A program made the translations under genes and the position numbers. 38,924 nt of DNA, taken from Lachnospiraceae bacterium (GTDB lineage Bacteria; Bacillota; Clostridia; Lachnospirales; Lachnospiraceae). Shown here one piece after another: positions 516 through 25,593 of the stretch. How positions within the stretch are numbered: position 1 is the first letter of the stretch; every line of letters starts with the position of its first letter. The stretch is from contig JAIDPH010000175.1 of the NCBI GenBank assembly GCA_029062885.1, positions 1 to 38,924 of the forward strand, read 5' to 3'. The notes beneath the pieces were generated by a model. The model was not told where the DNA came from, did no database searches, and worked only from the letters and a program-made list of their open reading frames with translations.

Positions 516-971
516 ATGGACAGTAACAATATGTATCAAAATCAGCAGTCGGGACAGAATCCTGACAACAATCAGAACGGCAATCAGGGAGGTTATTATC
601 AAAACACGTATACTCAGGGGGATAATAATCAGAACACTTACATGAATGCAAATTCTAACCCGAATGCTAACCCGAGTTATCAGTATAATCCGTATAATAA
701 CGGTTATCAGTCAACGTACCAACCGATGCAGGGTGATTTGGAAGAACCGGTATCGCTGGGTGAATGGATGATTACATTATTGCTTATGGTGATACCTTGT
801 GTTGGTATTATCATGCCATTCGTGTGGGCATTCAGTTCAGGCACAAAGAAGAGTAAATCTAATTACTTTAAAGCAGTTTTAATATTTGCAGCAATCTATC
901 TTGTGCTTTTCATAATTTCTATGGCGGCTTTTGGCGGCGCTATAACTGAGTTTTTCCGTTATTATTATTAG
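516..971 (+). CDS. Gln/Asn/Tyr-rich N-terminus with two transmembrane helices; unknown function
   Basis: A 151-residue protein with a strong GGGAGG ribosome binding site just before the ATG. Residues 1 to about 75 are low complexity, dominated by Asn, Gln, Tyr and Gly. They are followed by LGEWMITLLLMVIPCVGI and a second hydrophobic stretch (KAVLIFAAIYLVLFIISMAA), giving two helices joined by a basic loop (GTKKSKSNY). Residues 1-75 would be a flexible, possibly self-associating tail, while the C-terminal half resembles a membrane family common next to DUF2752 genes in Lachnospiraceae. This context is recalled, not searched. The stop lies 7 nt from the stop of the convergent methyltransferase gene, with no obvious terminator between them. 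Confidence 0.8.
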   Translation: MDSNNMYQNQQSGQNPDNNQNGNQGGYYQNTYTQGDNNQNTYMNANSNPNANPSYQYNPYNNGYQSTYQPMQGDLEEPVSLGEWMITLLLMVIPCVGIIMPFVWAFSSGTKKSKSNYFKAVLIFAAIYLVLFIISMAAFGGAITEFFRYYY

Positions 972-977
972 GTAATG

Positions 978-1844
978 TTATGACAAAGACTGCCAACGTC
1001 CGGAAGCTCCGCATGGAAGTATCAGGCTGTTAGAACTGACAGGCAGACCGATTTCCGATGCCTGTACCTGACCGCCGAATTCCGGGACAATTACTGTATT
1101 CAGCATGTATGACAGTACCGCGGGCTGTAGGCCGGTAGTGTATGAATTGATTAGGAAAAAGAGGGCATTTTTCGATAAAATCTTGGAAGTTAATTCAAGG
1201 AAAGGGAAAATGCTCTCTTCTATTTTCCAGATTTCACCCTTTGGTCCTCTTCCATAGGAAGGAGGGTCCATTATGATTGCATCATAAACGTTGCCACGGC
1301 GTATTTCACGTTCCACGAATTTTACGCAGTCATCGACCAGCCAGCGGATTGGAGCATCGGCCAGTCCTGAAGCGACAGCGTTTTCTTTTGCCCATGTTAC
1401 CATGCCTTTTGAGGCGTCCACATGTGTTACGCTTGCACCGGCTTTTGCAGCTGCAAGGGTTGCGCCGCCTGTATAAGCGAACAGATTTAAGACCTTAACA
1501 GGTCTGCCCGCATTCTTTATTTTAGAAGAAATCCAATCCCAGTTGACAGCCTGTTCTGGAAACAGACCGGTGTGTTTGAAACTGAAAGGTTTTAAATTGA
1601 AGGTCAGTTCTTTATACTGAATGCTCCATTCATCGGGCAGATTAAAAAATTCCCATTCGCCGCCTCCTTTGGCGCTTCTGTGATAGTGCCCGTTTCTTGT
1701 CTGCCAGCCGGGATTATCTTTAGGAGTATTCCATATGACCTGTGGGTCAGGCCTTACTAACAGATAACTGCCCCAGCGCTCCAGCTTCTCCCCGTTTGAT
1801 GTATCTATTACTTCATAATCTTTCCAGTCATCAGATATCCACAT
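978..1844 (-). CDS. Class I SAM-dependent methyltransferase, RlmI-like
   Basis: A 288-residue protein. The SAM-binding motif I is LNLFAYTGGATLAAAKAGA (about residues 120-138), followed by the acidic strand end THVDAS. DPPSYGRGPKGE (about residues 193-204) is the motif IV seen in Methyltrans_SAM proteins of the RlmI/RlmK group, which methylate 23S rRNA cytosine or guanine. It is shorter than RlmI (about 400 residues) and lacks the N-terminal PUA domain, so the substrate is uncertain; RNA is the likely target. The ATG at 1844 has a GGAGGA site 7-8 nt upstream. It lies 23 nt after the MATE gene stop and is probably co-transcribed with it. Confidence 0.85.
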   Translation of the reverse strand: MWISDDWKDYEVIDTSNGEKLERWGSYLLVRPDPQVIWNTPKDNPGWQTRNGHYHRSAKGGGEWEFFNLPDEWSIQYKELTFNLKPFSFKHTGLFPEQAVNWDWISSKIKNAGRPVKVLNLFAYTGGATLAAAKAGASVTHVDASKGMVTWAKENAVASGLADAPIRWLVDDCVKFVEREIRRGNVYDAIIMDPPSYGRGPKGEIWKIEESIFPFLELTSKILSKNALFFLINSYTTGLQPAVLSYMLNTVIVPEFGGQVQASEIGLPVSSNSLILPCGASGRWQSLS

Positions 1845-21659: not shown

Positions 21660-22484
21660 TTAGTTAAATGGAATAACCGCTCCGTCATATGTATTGTTGA
21701 TATAATCGGTAATAGCATCAGATTTCAAAACCTCAATCAATGCCTTGATGCCGTCGTTGTTCTCATTTCCTTCTTTTACGGCGATTACGTTTACATAAGT
21801 TGTAGCAGCTTCGGAATCGGATTTTTCATATGCAATAGAATCTTTTCCAACTGAAAAACCTGCTTCAAGTGCATAGTTACCATTTAAAACTACGAAAGCT
21901 ACTTCATCTTTTACTCTGGGTACCTGTGCGGCTTCTAATTCCAGAATTTCAACATTGTAAGGATTTTCGGAAATATCATTTACGGTAGCTTCCAGACTGC
22001 TGTTTTTCAAAGTGATAATTCCGTTATCCTGTAACAGAAGAAGCGCTCTTGCTTCATTGGTTGTATCGTTGGGAACTGCAATGACGTCGCCTTCTTCAAT
22101 TGTGCTTAAATCGCTTTTCTGACCGGGATAAATACCAAACGGCTCGTAGTGGATTCCGGCTGCATTTACAAGGTGTGTTCCAAATTCTTCATTAAATGAA
22201 TTCAGATAAGGAATGTGCTGGAAGTAGTTAGCGTCAAAGTCACCGCTCTCAACAACGTTATTGGGCTGTACATAGTCGTCGAAAACCGTAATCTGAAGAT
22301 CCCAGCCCTGCTCGGCAAGGATTGGCTTAGCTTCTTCCAGAATCTCTGCATGAGGGGTTGCGGAAGCCGCAACAGTAATGGTTCCTTTGTTTTCGTTGGA
22401 ATCTGATGAGTCATTTCCGCATCCTGTAAGAACGCCCAGTGATAATGCTGCTGTTAATAATACTGCAATAAATCTTTTTTTCAT
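21660..22484 (-). CDS. metQ: MetQ/NlpA family methionine-binding lipoprotein
   Basis: The substrate-binding part of the MetNIQ importer. The protein has 274 residues from the chosen start. The frame extends to an ATG at 22499, but that codon lies inside the ribosome binding site GGAGGAG; the ATG at 22484 is at the right distance and begins a clean lipoprotein signal (MKKRF, hydrophobic core, LTGC, Cys22). The mature part has typical NlpA sequences: TVAASATPHAEIL, DYVQPNNVVESGDFDANYFQ and NDTTNEARALLLLQ. It is the last gene of the minus-strand metN-metI-metQ unit, 128 nt after metI, and is followed by a terminator. The methionine ligand is supported by the Met-rich leader peptide upstream of the operon. 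Confidence 0.94.
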   Translation of the reverse strand: MKKRFIAVLLTAALSLGVLTGCGNDSSDSNENKGTITVAASATPHAEILEEAKPILAEQGWDLQITVFDDYVQPNNVVESGDFDANYFQHIPYLNSFNEEFGTHLVNAAGIHYEPFGIYPGQKSDLSTIEEGDVIAVPNDTTNEARALLLLQDNGIITLKNSSLEATVNDISENPYNVEILELEAAQVPRVKDEVAFVVLNGNYALEAGFSVGKDSIAYEKSDSEAATTYVNVIAVKEGNENNDGIKALIEVLKSDAITDYINNTYDGAVIPFN

Positions 22485-22612
22485 ATTTTTCTCCTCCATC
22501 TTTTGACCTGCGGATTAGTTATTTGCATGTAAAAAATCTATTTTTTACATTATGTTTACGCAGGCATATTTCTATGTAAAGAACAAGAGTTCCTTAAATA
22601 GCGTATTAATAA

Positions 22613-23275
22613 TTACAATTTTCTTTTATCAAGTTTATTGGATAATTTCATTCCTATTGTCTGAAAAATCTGAACCAGTACAATAAGCAGGATGACCGTA
22701 ACAAACATCATATCCAGCTGCCATCTGTGATAACCGTAACGAATCGCAATATCACCAAGACCGCCTCCCCCGATACAGCCTGCCATAGCGGAATACCCCA
22801 GAATGGTACCGAGCGCAATGGTCATGCCCACTAAAATTGAAGTTCTTGCTTCTACTAATAAAACTTTCCAAATAATAGTGAAGGTATCAGCGCCCATACT
22901 CTGTGCAGCCTCAACTACGCCTTTGTCAACTTCGTTCAAAGATGATTCTATCATACGGGCTATAAAGGGAGCCGCAGCGATAGTAAGTGGAACAATGGTT
23001 GCTGTGGAACCGTAGCTTTTTCCTATTAGAAATTTGGTAAAAGGAATGAGTAGAATCAGCAAAATCAAAAACGGTATACTTCTGATTATATTTGCAATAA
23101 AATCCAGAATCTTGTATATGACCGGATTTGGTTTAATTCCGTTCTTATCGGTTACGGCAAGCGTAATTCCCATGGGGAGTCCTAACAGATAACCGAAAAA
23201 AGTTGAAGCTAATGTCATATACAGGGTATCTTTAATTCCTTCAAGTATCATCCATACTACTTCTTTAGTCCACAT
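22613..23275 (-). CDS. metI: MetI-type methionine ABC transporter permease
   Basis: A 220-residue permease with five or six helices and the coupling loop VDKGVVEAAQSMGADTFTII (about residues 124-143), typical of MetI. The C-terminal half shows AMAGCIGGGGLGDIAIRYGY, another MetI hallmark. The start is chosen at the ATG at 23275 (MWTKE), 9 nt from GGAGG; the ATG at 23281 is only 3 nt away and a TTG at 23284 closer still. With this start the gene overlaps the end of metN by 11 nt, indicating translational coupling. Confidence 0.93.
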   Translation of the reverse strand: MWTKEVVWMILEGIKDTLYMTLASTFFGYLLGLPMGITLAVTDKNGIKPNPVIYKILDFIANIIRSIPFLILLILLIPFTKFLIGKSYGSTATIVPLTIAAAPFIARMIESSLNEVDKGVVEAAQSMGADTFTIIWKVLLVEARTSILVGMTIALGTILGYSAMAGCIGGGGLGDIAIRYGYHRWQLDMMFVTVILLIVLVQIFQTIGMKLSNKLDKRKL

Positions 23276-24305
23276 AACCATCAACCTCCTCTACTGCAAG
23301 ACCTCTTTTTGTAAGATATGCTTTCATTTGTTCCTGCATTTCACTATTTTCCGGAAGCTGCAGAATCATTTCTCCTCTGGCAATACCCTCTACATTTTTT
23401 GTATCAGCCTTTAAAATATTGACGGGCTGCCCGAATTTCAGCACCATATTTGCAATTACGGGCTCAAAAGAGGAATTGACCGAAAAAACAATGCGGATAC
23501 AGCTTTTACCTTCCATCAATGACCTTTGATGACTTTCCAGATTCAAATCAGCAGCGTCATCACTGCCTTTGACAATCAGTTTTTTGGCTGCCGGAGTCTG
23601 AGGATGGCTGAAAATATCAAATACCCTTCCCTGTTCAACGAGCTGGCCGTTACTGATAATCGCAACATGGGAGCATATTTCCCTGACTACGGCCATTTCG
23701 TGGGTAATAATTACAATAGTAATGCCGTATTGTCTGTTTATATTTTTAAGTAAGGAAAGAATCGCCTGTGTAGTTTGTGGGTCTAAAGCGCTGGTTGCCT
23801 CGTCACATAACAGAATCTTGGGATTTCCCGCAAGCGCTCTTGCTATTGCCACACGCTGTTTCTGCCCGCCGGATAATTGAGACGGATAAGCTTTTGCCTT
23901 CTCCCGCATGCCGACTATGTCCAGAAGCTCTTCAGCTTTCTTTCTGGCTTCTTTTTTCTTTACGCCTGAAATTACAAGTGGAAAACAGATGTTATCTATT
24001 ACGTTTTTCTGCATAAGTAGATTGAAATGCTGAAATATCATAGCAATTTCACTTCGTTGGTTGCGTAACTCCTTATTTGTCATGGCGCTTAAGTCTTTGC
24101 CTTCAATTTCTACGGTACCTTTTGTCGGACGTTCCAGAAAATTTAAACATCTGACCAGTGTGCTTTTACCCGCTCCCGACATACCGATGATACCGTAAAT
24201 GTCGCCCGCCTGTATTGATAGGTTGATATCCTGCAGCGCTTCTACTTCAGAGTCCTTTGTTGTAAAGACTTTAGTAAGGCCACGAACTTCAATAATTCCT
24301 GCCAT
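23265..24305 (-). CDS. metN: MetN, ATPase of the methionine ABC importer
   Basis: A 346-residue ABC ATPase. Walker A GMSGAGKST (about residues 37-45), Q-loop FQHFN, signature LSGGQKQR (about 142-149), Walker B ILLCDEATSALD (about 162-173) and the H-loop His in IITHE are all intact. From about residue 265 a C-terminal NIL domain follows (FSVNSSFEPVIANMVLKFGQ), which in MetN binds methionine and inhibits transport when internal methionine is high. The start at 24305 has GAGG 8 nt upstream. It is the first structural gene after the Met-rich leader and attenuator. Confidence 0.95.
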   Translation of the reverse strand: MAGIIEVRGLTKVFTTKDSEVEALQDINLSIQAGDIYGIIGMSGAGKSTLVRCLNFLERPTKGTVEIEGKDLSAMTNKELRNQRSEIAMIFQHFNLLMQKNVIDNICFPLVISGVKKKEARKKAEELLDIVGMREKAKAYPSQLSGGQKQRVAIARALAGNPKILLCDEATSALDPQTTQAILSLLKNINRQYGITIVIITHEMAVVREICSHVAIISNGQLVEQGRVFDIFSHPQTPAAKKLIVKGSDDAADLNLESHQRSLMEGKSCIRIVFSVNSSFEPVIANMVLKFGQPVNILKADTKNVEGIARGEMILQLPENSEMQEQMKAYLTKRGLAVEEVDGYVD

Positions 24306-24394
24306 ATGTACATCCTCTCTTTTGAAAAGTTTACCTGTTTCAGTTGTTACTATACCTTATAACTACTGCCTCTGCGTATTTATTCGCTGGACAT

Positions 24395-24425
24395 AAAAAC
24401 AGGTGCATGGGTATCATGCACCTGT
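24395..24425 (-). terminator. Attenuator terminator between the Met-rich leader ORF and metN
   Basis: On the minus strand ACAGGTGCATG (24425-24415) pairs perfectly with CATGCACCTGT (24409-24399), 11 bp around a 5-nt loop, followed by TTTTT (24399-24395). It ends about 90 nt before the metN ATG, so it is placed to abort transcription before the structural genes. Confidence 0.87.
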
Positions 24426-24472
24426 GGATTCACTATAGTAGCAGCTATGAATCAGGCTTTATGATACACATG
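24406..24472 (-). promoter_or_regulatory. Predicted antiterminator pairing of the metNIQ leader
   Basis: Minus-strand CATGTGTATCAT (24472-24461), which codes leader residues 28-31, is complementary to ATGATACCCATG (24417-24406) at 11 of 12 positions. The second segment is the loop and inner stem of the terminator, so the two structures exclude each other. A further hairpin (24484-24493 with 24498-24509) lies between the Met codons and this segment. A ribosome held at the Met codons leaves 24461-24472 free and would favour antitermination; a ribosome reaching the stop at 24452 covers it and lets the terminator form. Confidence 0.7.
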
Positions 24473-24553
24473 AAAAACATCTATAACACTGCACATCTGC
24501 ATTGTGTTACTGCACATCATCATATTCATAGTCATCATGATATTATTTTTCAT
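24452..24553 (-). CDS. Methionine-rich leader peptide of the metNIQ operon (33 codons)
   Basis: A short ORF beginning ATGAAAAATAAT with AAAGG 9 nt upstream, about 31 nt after the predicted transcription start. The peptide starts MKNNIMMTMNMMMCSNTMQM and ends HVYHKA. Met occupies positions 1, 6, 7, 9, 11, 12, 13, 18 and 20 (9 of 33), with Cys at 14 and 21. Such density of one amino acid is the hallmark of attenuator peptides in which ribosome pausing senses charged tRNA. It is followed in order by a competing RNA pairing, an intrinsic terminator and metN, a methionine importer. An alternative upstream ATG (24560) gives only a 5-codon ORF. The peptide itself probably has no function beyond its translation. 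Confidence 0.82.
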   Translation of the reverse strand: MKNNIMMTMNMMMCSNTMQMCSVIDVFHVYHKA

Positions 24554-24590
24554 GTGGCATCGCCTTTCAATTCATATTATATCGTGTCTT

Positions 24591-24619
24591 ACTATATTAC
24601 AAATCAATTCCATTGTCAA
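24591..24619 (-). promoter_or_regulatory. Promoter of the metNIQ leader transcript
   Basis: On the minus strand a perfect TTGACA (24619-24614), exactly 17 nt, then TATAGT (24596-24591). Transcription should begin near 24584. It lies directly after the cysK stop codon, and no terminator is visible between cysK and this promoter, so some read-through into the leader is possible. Confidence 0.85.
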
Positions 24620-24651
24620 GTGCAAACACAAACTCTATTTGCTGTCTGCTA

Positions 24652-25593
24652 TTATGCTTCTGTAGAAAACAGTGGTGTGGATAAGTATCTGTCGCCTGAG
24701 TCGGGTAGTAATGCAACAATCACTTTACCTTTATTTTCGGGACGCTTAGCAAGCTCTGTAGCTGCAAAGAGTGCAGCGCCGGAAGAAATACCTACCAATA
24801 CGCCTTCTTTAACTGCGATTTCTCTTCCTGCTGTAAAAGCATCTTCATTGGATACTTTTATGATTTCATCATAAATCTTAGTGTCTAGGACTTCCGGTAC
24901 GAAGCCGGCTCCGATACCCTGGATTTTATGTGCTCCTGGAGCTCCGCCGGATAAAACAGGACTGCTTTCAGGTTCTACAGCAACAACCTTTACATTAGGA
25001 TTTTTCTCTTTTAAATAAGTTCCTACGCCTGTAATTGTGCCGCCTGTACCTACACCCGCTACAAAGATATCTACTTTACCATCGGTATCATTCCAGATTT
25101 CAGGACCGGTAGTCGCTTTATGTATTTCAGGATTAGCCGGATTCACGAACTGACCTAAGATTACGGAGCCCGGTGTGGAAGACTGAAGTTCCTCAGCTTT
25201 AGCGATTGCACCTTTCATTCCTTTGCTTCCTTCAGTTAATACAAGTTCAGCGCCATATGCCTGCAACAGCTTTCTTCTTTCTACGCTCATCGTTTCCGGA
25301 AGAGTCAGGACTGCTTTATAGCCTTTAGCTGCTGCTACAGCTGCAAGACCGATGCCGGTATTTCCGGAAGTCGGCTCGATAATCGTTGCACCCGGTTTCA
25401 ATATGCCTTTCTTCTCTGCATCTTCAATCATGCTAAGTGCAATACGGTCCTTTACGGAGCCTGCCGGATTTAAGTATTCGAGCTTAACTAAAATAGTAGC
25501 GTCTTCAACCTGATTTGCTTTTGCGTAGTTTGCCACCTCTAATAAGGGTGTACCGCCGATAAGTTCTACTGAGCTTTTTTTAATGTTTGCCAT
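24652..25593 (-). CDS. cysK: Cysteine synthase (O-acetylserine sulfhydrylase)
   Basis: Makes cysteine from O-acetylserine and sulfide with pyridoxal phosphate. The 313 residues match CysK. The cofactor Lys is in [12 protein letters not shown] (about residue 47), the substrate loop is [15 protein letters not shown] (about 74-88), the phosphate-binding glycines are [12 protein letters not shown] (about 180-191), and the end [13 protein letters not shown] is typical of the family. A GGGAGGA ribosome site and its own promoter lie upstream. It is immediately upstream of metNIQ on the same strand, making a sulfur amino acid locus; the two Cys codons in the met leader may add a link. Confidence 0.95.

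Follow-up and report, generated by a model that had tools for sequence, protein, structure and literature searches.

A putative methionine-codon leader-peptide attenuator upstream of metNIQ in the Lachnospiraceae

Introduction

In Firmicutes, methionine genes are usually controlled by the S-box (SAM-I) riboswitch or by the T-box, RNA elements that can act at a terminator. The locus described here raises the question of what controls a metNIQ operon that is preceded by a short, Met-rich open reading frame (ORF) and a terminator-like hairpin, an arrangement that the original prediction for this DNA took for a Met-codon attenuator. The whole stretch of DNA analyzed, 38,924 nucleotides in length, is referred to as the window. 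Comparisons covered genomes of the same genus and metN loci from two wider circles: the family, which was assigned as Lachnospiraceae from named relatives, and other families in the class. Both the conservation of the leader and the lack of a match to SAM riboswitch or T-box models speak for the predicted attenuator. We judge it likely, with a probability of about 0.86, that metNIQ is controlled by transcription attenuation of the trp/his type, mediated by the ribosome and sensing charged elongator Met-tRNA.

The metNIQ locus and the elements of its leader

The proposed gene order was recovered from best matches to protein family models. The metN gene (23265..24305, minus strand) encodes the ATP-binding subunit of a methionine-type ABC importer, with TIGR02314 MetN as its best NCBIfam match (372 bits; cut-off, 499.7) and a NIL domain (PF09383). 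The permease gene metI (22613..23284, minus strand) passes the cut-off of the MetI model NF008049 (217.8 bits versus 212), and metQ (21660..22499, minus strand) encodes an NlpA-family substrate-binding lipoprotein (PF03180, 268 bits) whose best NCBIfam match, MetQ, falls under its cut-off. As MetN and MetQ score below the NCBIfam cut-offs, the substrate of the importer is not certain. The upstream neighbor is cysK (24652..25593, minus strand), encoding cysteine synthase A (TIGR01139, 462 bits, above the cut-off), which is considered here as context only and lies outside the proposed switch. As predicted, 346 nt separate the cysK stop codon from the metN ATG, and all leader elements lie in this gap on the minus strand. 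Two full-length TwoAYGGAY RNAs (RF01731; 21024-21190 and 26364-26530, both minus strand) flank cysK-metNIQ on the same strand. The same genome has 17 copies of this RNA that score over the cut-off, spread across 14 contigs, which suggests a dispersed element and not a component of the cysK-metNIQ operon.

The leader peptide ORF MKNNIMMTMNMMMCSNTMQMCSVIDVFHVYHKA (24452..24553) comprises 33 codons, nine of them for Met, as the original prediction had read it apart from the strand, which it did not give; two further codons are for Cys. The Met codons occupy positions 1, 6, 7, 9, 11, 12, 13, 18, and 20, so that six fall within codons 6 to 13. The ORF is supported by the sequence itself, by conservation in relatives, and by a shuffle test: its Met/Cys segment score, excluding the initial Met, is 14, whereas none of the dinucleotide shuffles, ten per region for 109 metN upstream regions, scored above 8. 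The predicted sensing block, MMTMNMMMCSNTMQMC, spans codons 6 to 21 (24491..24538, minus strand). A Shine-Dalgarno (SD)-like AAAGG (24563..24567, minus strand) ends 9 nt before the ATG, in keeping with the fair ribosome site proposed, and AAAGG or AAGGAG was seen by eye at the equivalent position in relatives.

The near-consensus promoter expected upstream of the ORF corresponds to TTGACA-17-TATAGT (24591..24619, minus strand), which matches 11 of 12 consensus positions. TTGACA followed by TATAGT or TAAAGT is present by eye at the equivalent site in six of the seven leaders known from the genus, that of the window included, and is absent in G075. The predicted terminator before metN (24394..24425, minus strand) consists of an 11-bp stem with six G-C pairs (24425-24399) followed by T5; it was the sole terminator-like hairpin found within 24000-25200, and all seven genus leaders have one at the equivalent position. 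Counts from consensus scans of 24000-25200 were near chance, both for promoter-like sites (5 versus 3.4 ± 2.0 in shuffles) and for terminator-like sites (1 versus 0.7 ± 0.8). The promoter and terminator calls are therefore supported by their conservation in relatives and not by the scan counts.

Four regions of the leader can be distinguished, all on the minus strand. Region 1 (24543..24575) contains the SD, the start codon, and codons 2 to 4 and can pair with region 2 (24448..24480), which contains codons 25 to 33, the stop codon, and 4 further nucleotides. Alternatively, region 2 can pair through 24472-24452 with region 3 (24407..24425), its antiterminator partner, made up of the terminator 5' arm, the loop, and the start of the 3' arm. 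Regions 3 and 4 form the terminator.

Search for known methionine-responsive RNAs

The original prediction saw neither an S-box nor a T-box in the gap, and covariance searches agree. Neither the SAM riboswitch (RF00162) nor the T-box (RF00230) model matched the window at gathering score or the leader at E ≤ 10, and the permissive threshold brought up just two Rfam matches to the leader, to a Pseudomonas sRNA and to a snoRNA, both under their cut-offs. Likewise, no SAM or T-box match was found at gathering scores in any of the 80 named metN loci (L040 to L119), nor in the 20 of 109 family loci that the Rfam search covered. At the metN locus L098, two tandem Clostridiales-1 RNAs (RF01699) lie nearby (961-1317, minus strand).

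The genome to which the window belongs does contain both kinds of element. A single SAM riboswitch precedes an ORF that reads by eye as metK, and seven T-box matches, four of them over the cut-off, lie mostly before genes that by eye resemble synthetase genes. One weak T-box match (L134; C380:15223-15460, minus strand; 26.8 bits versus a cut-off of 93) is located upstream of an ORF that by eye resembles a methionyl-tRNA synthetase gene. If this were a divergent Met T-box, it would be a third methionine sensor in the genome.

Conservation of the leader within the genus

Five leaders were used to build a covariance model of region 2 and the terminator, which was searched against 77 genomes of the genus at E ≤ 0.001 with stricter filters. 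Window-type leaders were found in seven genomes, the window's own included, and in all seven lie directly upstream of metN; with the same filters, none was found in the other 70. By comparison, metN was detected at E ≤ 1e-120 in 46 of 60 genus genomes. The seven peptides bear out the expectation that the ORF and most Met codons would be kept while the linker codons drift. In window numbering, Met11, Cys14, Met18, and Met20 are invariant, while Met9, Met12, and Met13 are each substituted in one peptide. The tail DVF(R/H)xxxKA is retained, length differences amount to one whole codon, and region 2 is nearly invariant.

Five of the seven window-type leaders are represented in a metN tree of 104 rows, where they fall into one supported clade of eight (97/86). 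Among the other members, the cysK match stops 21 nt before metN in L014 and L015, and the congener L012 (1180-1500, plus strand) has retained the promoter match and the terminator and lost the leader ORF. The simplest reading is that the leader was ancestral to this clade and was lost in L012, L014, and L015. The natural ORF deletion in L012 should lock the terminator on, unless metN is supplied by read-through from cysK. Of the 104 rows, 11 carry the leader label, whose distribution across the tree requires 8 changes, compared with 10.6 when labels are shuffled. The genus model also weakly matches the leader of Anaerobium acetethylicum (24.5 bits, E = 0.019), whose peptide ends in VFRVGYEI.

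Distribution of Met/Cys leader ORFs upstream of metN

The survey of the family used 299 Lachnospiraceae genomes, one per genus except for the window's genus, 114 of which contained metN at E ≤ 1e-100. Besides the window's own, the 600 nt before metN were scanned in 109 of them (G247, G366, G228, and G080 were left out). A Met/Cys segment score of at least 8 was found in 28 of the 109 regions and a score of at least 12 in 22, compared with shuffle expectations of 0.2 and 0 per 109, respectively; no ORF scoring at least 8 was found in the other 81. The opposite strand yielded no Met/Cys ORF scoring at least 8 in any of the 109 regions. Off-target tiles of 600 nt reached a score of at least 8 in 4 of 1,044 cases and of at least 12 in one, a Cys-rich frame in L074. 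Met plus Cys ranked first among all 190 residue pairs at a score of at least 12. At the laxer score of at least 8 it was outranked by three pairs of common residues, LR (36 of 109), RS (34), and IR (30). The leaders include those of Anaerocolumna aminovalerica (MNMMMCCGHMCGSMYMAYCCAC, L053), A. acetethylicum (MSEDMMMCCFSCMCM, L059), and Roseburia inulinivorans (MMSEMMCMCRCMCMSCMSC, L079), as well as that of L208 (MQMNMCMMNDMCMMMCRMLMC). In L110 and L113, which have leader sequences unlike that of the window, cysK lies downstream of metQ and not upstream of metN.

Other families of the class contributed 28 metN loci, not counting the window and one family member. Among them, L248 alone passes a score of 8 (with 19), and L249 comes to 7 (MLMCKLDMMNM); each of the two ORFs is followed, by eye, by a hairpin and a T-run. 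The terminator finder saw no terminator in 8 of 45 candidate leaders; as it tolerates no mismatch, it may have missed some, such as that of L079. These eight did not enter the pairing tests, nor did L162, L171, L172, and L230, which were dropped for a weak or distant hairpin or for lack of an SD, or the duplicates L136 and L142. In the remaining 31 leaders, the Met/Cys block ends 2 to 23 codons before the stop codon and the terminator begins 15 to 67 nt past it.

Alternative pairings of the leader RNA

Beyond the original prediction, the leader can form the alternative pairings of an attenuator, which are partly backed by compensatory changes. The predicted antiterminator (2:3) of the window joins CATGTGTATCATAAAGCCTGA, comprising the last codons and the stop codon, to ACAGGTGCATGATACCCAT in region 3, with a duplex energy of -16.7 kcal/mol compared with -10.1 ± 2.1 kcal/mol in shuffles (p = 0.017). 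The 1:2 duplex reaches -25.6 kcal/mol versus -14.4 ± 2.6 kcal/mol (p = 0.007) and appears in the minimum free energy (MFE) fold of the leader RNA. The antiterminator was significant (p < 0.05) in 15 of the 31 leaders and in 9 of 25 without the six other window-type leaders (Fisher, 1e-10, a value that is too strong because some leaders are homologous), and the 1:2 pairing was significant in 19 of 31. The same threshold was missed by 16 and 12 leaders, respectively. L111 (p = 0.69 and 0.86) and L242 (p = 0.25 and 0.54) clearly failed for the antiterminator and for 1:2, L237 failed for the antiterminator (p = 0.39), and L167 (p = 0.80) and L239 (p = 0.58) failed for 1:2.

When the 15 antiterminator pairs were followed through the seven window-type leaders, with loops aligned from the left, 102 of 105 cells held standard pairs. 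Two pairs between regions 2 and 3 switch from A-U to G-C in relatives. One of them involves the terminator loop, on which the terminator itself imposes no pairing constraint. These compensatory changes may represent one or two events only.

In nine leaders, five of them window-type, folding of the RNA 3' of a ribosome in the block, with region 1 omitted and the terminator 3' arm absent, gave the antiterminator in every case. Equilibrium folding of the complete RNA, by contrast, favored the terminator in all states tried for eight of the nine, with values of 0.91 to 0.99 in all five window-type leaders whether or not a stalled ribosome is present. Only L206 switches at equilibrium, and it does so only when a queued ribosome masks region 1. 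The Escherichia coli trpL control behaved alike, as its terminator reached 0.94 to 0.96 in all states and its pairings were no stronger than those of the leaders studied here (antiterminator, p = 0.18; 1:2, p = 0.91). As the terminator is favored at equilibrium, the switch would have to be kinetic, as in trp, and as trpL behaves in the same way, equilibrium folding neither proves nor refutes a switch.

Cysteine codons and alternative explanations

Cys codons, which the original prediction had not considered, are enriched as well as Met codons. Selecting leaders by Met alone gave 23 of 109, and among the 100 non-Met residues in the blocks of these leaders, Cys is enriched 5.3-fold and Asn 5.8-fold. 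Cys is thus not the sole enriched residue, as Asn is enriched too; a Cys input alongside Met appears plausible. The same enrichment favors an alternative in which the attenuator senses a shortage of cysteine, or of sulfur amino acids in general, with the Cys codons doing the work and Met being secondary. This would fit the position of cysK upstream in the window and the Cys-heavy composition of some leaders, such as that of R. inulinivorans. However, the window leader has eight internal Met codons versus two Cys codons, most of the listed leaders have more Met than Cys in the block, and the genes downstream are metNIQ by best match, all of which makes primary sensing of cysteine unlikely.

Two further explanations seem highly improbable to us, and about equally so. 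The ORF might encode a functional Met/Cys-rich small protein, for example, a copper-binding one, with the terminator being incidental. Met/Cys-rich peptides can bind Cu(I), and the ORF has an SD, but it has no Pfam match, such ORFs stand directly before metN in many genera, the peptide is free to vary outside its Met/Cys residues and its paired tail, and the alternative pairings are conserved. Alternatively, the leader RNA could act as a riboswitch of an undescribed kind or bind a protein, and the ORF would then belong to the aptamer, to which the strong fold of the leader RNA (z = -4.8) and the near invariance of region 2 within the genus would be suited. Other genera, however, keep the Met/Cys codons and the ORF-terminator layout and not the sequence, which is not as expected of an aptamer.

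Least probable of all is that the hairpin serves only to end cysK transcripts and that the ORF is a chance frame. In favor of this, cysK lies upstream in the same orientation, and no terminator-like site was found between it and the promoter match. However, the hairpin is downstream of that match, and the shuffle survey makes such an ORF improbable by chance. Leaders also occur in L045, Anaerocolumna (L053), Anaerobium (L059), and Roseburia (L079), where no cysK match was found upstream, and the hairpin was rejected as a cysK terminator for this reason. Three of these loci have a terminator, and L079 has an imperfect hairpin and T-run by eye.

Proposed mechanism of attenuation

The ORF, the promoter match, the terminator, and the three possible pairings can be read directly from the sequence, as can their conservation and position. 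Translation of the ORF, ribosome stalling, the sequence of folding events, and the methionine response we infer as follows. Transcription would start between cysK and metN, at the predicted promoter, and the transcript would present, in order, region 1 (from the SD to codon 4), the Met/Cys block, region 2 (the last codons and the stop codon), region 3, and region 4. With elongator Met-tRNA charged, the ribosome would reach the stop codon and cover region 2, allowing the 3:4 terminator to form. With elongator Met-tRNA uncharged, the ribosome would stall in the Met block; this ribosome, probably together with one queued behind it, would occupy region 1, so that regions 2 and 3 could pair before region 4 is made and the polymerase could read through into metNIQ. 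If the ORF were not translated at all, 1:2 would form and then the terminator. The two Cys codons may give a second input.

A ribosome stalled at codons 9 to 13 would already have passed most of region 1, and masking this region would therefore need an early stall, at codons 6 and 7, or a queued ribosome. One or the other would have to keep region 1 open in leaders of the window type.

Internal AUG codons are read only by elongator Met-tRNA. As AUG is also the start codon, the leader would sense the elongator Met-tRNA pool only, and its signal should be distinct from SAM. On a wider scale, the leaders could form a widespread class of dual Met/Cys-codon attenuators in Clostridia, independently arisen or repeatedly remodeled, which would read the charging of elongator Met-tRNA and Cys-tRNA and gate the import of sulfur amino acids, while the SAM riboswitch before metK would read SAM within the same cell. 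We advance this generalization tentatively, rating its chances as somewhat short of even. If it is true, the translation status of methionine and the status of SAM would be sensed separately, and if the Cys codons are also read, one peptide would integrate two amino acids.

Overall, the SAM riboswitch and the T-box are the textbook means of control for methionine genes in Firmicutes. In about a quarter of the metN-bearing genera sampled in the family (28 of 109), metN is instead preceded by a leader ORF on whose AUG codons ribosomes would stall. The leaders may represent a case of one regulatory logic kept or remade across sequences that are unlike each other. The proposal makes a testable prediction for the cultured species R. 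inulinivorans, A. aminovalerica, and A. acetethylicum.

Comparison with known attenuators

Leader-peptide attenuators of the trp, his, leu, and thr operons are known from Proteobacteria. The leader described here resembles them in having regulatory codons in a short ORF, a region 2 that can pair with region 1 or 3, a 3:4 terminator, and a structural gene downstream (trpL was compared directly; the others are drawn from general knowledge). Unlike in those systems, the codon sensed here would be AUG (Met), together with Cys codons, the operon encodes a transporter, and region 1 of the window type does not cover the sensing codons but the SD and start codon. S-box and T-box RNAs share with the leader the ability to act at a terminator, but the window leader matches neither model.

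Within the Firmicutes, histidine leader peptides are in print (PMC2965389, PMC9413887). As described in the available parts of these papers, they are likewise leader-peptide attenuators with a terminator and an antiterminator, but they use histidine codons, precede hisS, hisZ, and other his genes, and belong to other lineages. Branched-chain amino acid leader peptides have been described in Staphylococcus aureus (PMC5794164, in the text available). In mycobacteria, cys operons have Cys-codon leader ORFs (PMC1262725), which are similar in being rich in codons for a sulfur amino acid and in preceding sulfur genes. In contrast to the leader studied here, they contain Cys only, have no conserved terminator hairpin reported in the available portion of that paper, and occur in Actinobacteria. 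Polycysteine attenuators have also been reported, in sources available in part. For methionine operons of Actinobacteria, Seliverstov et al. (2005) reported, in the same portion of PMC1262725, no conserved structure upstream.

The attenuator had originally been thought undescribed, which stands in part. No Met leader peptide in Firmicutes was found in the open-licence literature, and Rodionov et al. (2004), whose subject is the regulation of methionine genes in Gram-positive bacteria, may already mention one. However, a leader peptide, metL, has been listed before metNIQ in Streptomyces lividans TK24 as an attenuator predicted from RNA-seq (PMC8079986). According to the available text of that report, metL, which is given there as MSTTSDRTPATEATTTPGARCMCRRMCAF, is likewise a short peptide that contains Met and Cys and lies before metNIQ, but it has a leaderless start, fewer Met codons, unclear termination, and no typical intrinsic terminator, and it comes from Actinobacteria. 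The leader described here, in contrast, has an SD-led ORF, a denser Met block, a clear terminator, both 1:2 and 2:3 pairings, and comparative support, and it comes from Clostridia. What appears to be new is thus the occurrence of such a leader in Clostridia, its putative four-region architecture, and its spread.
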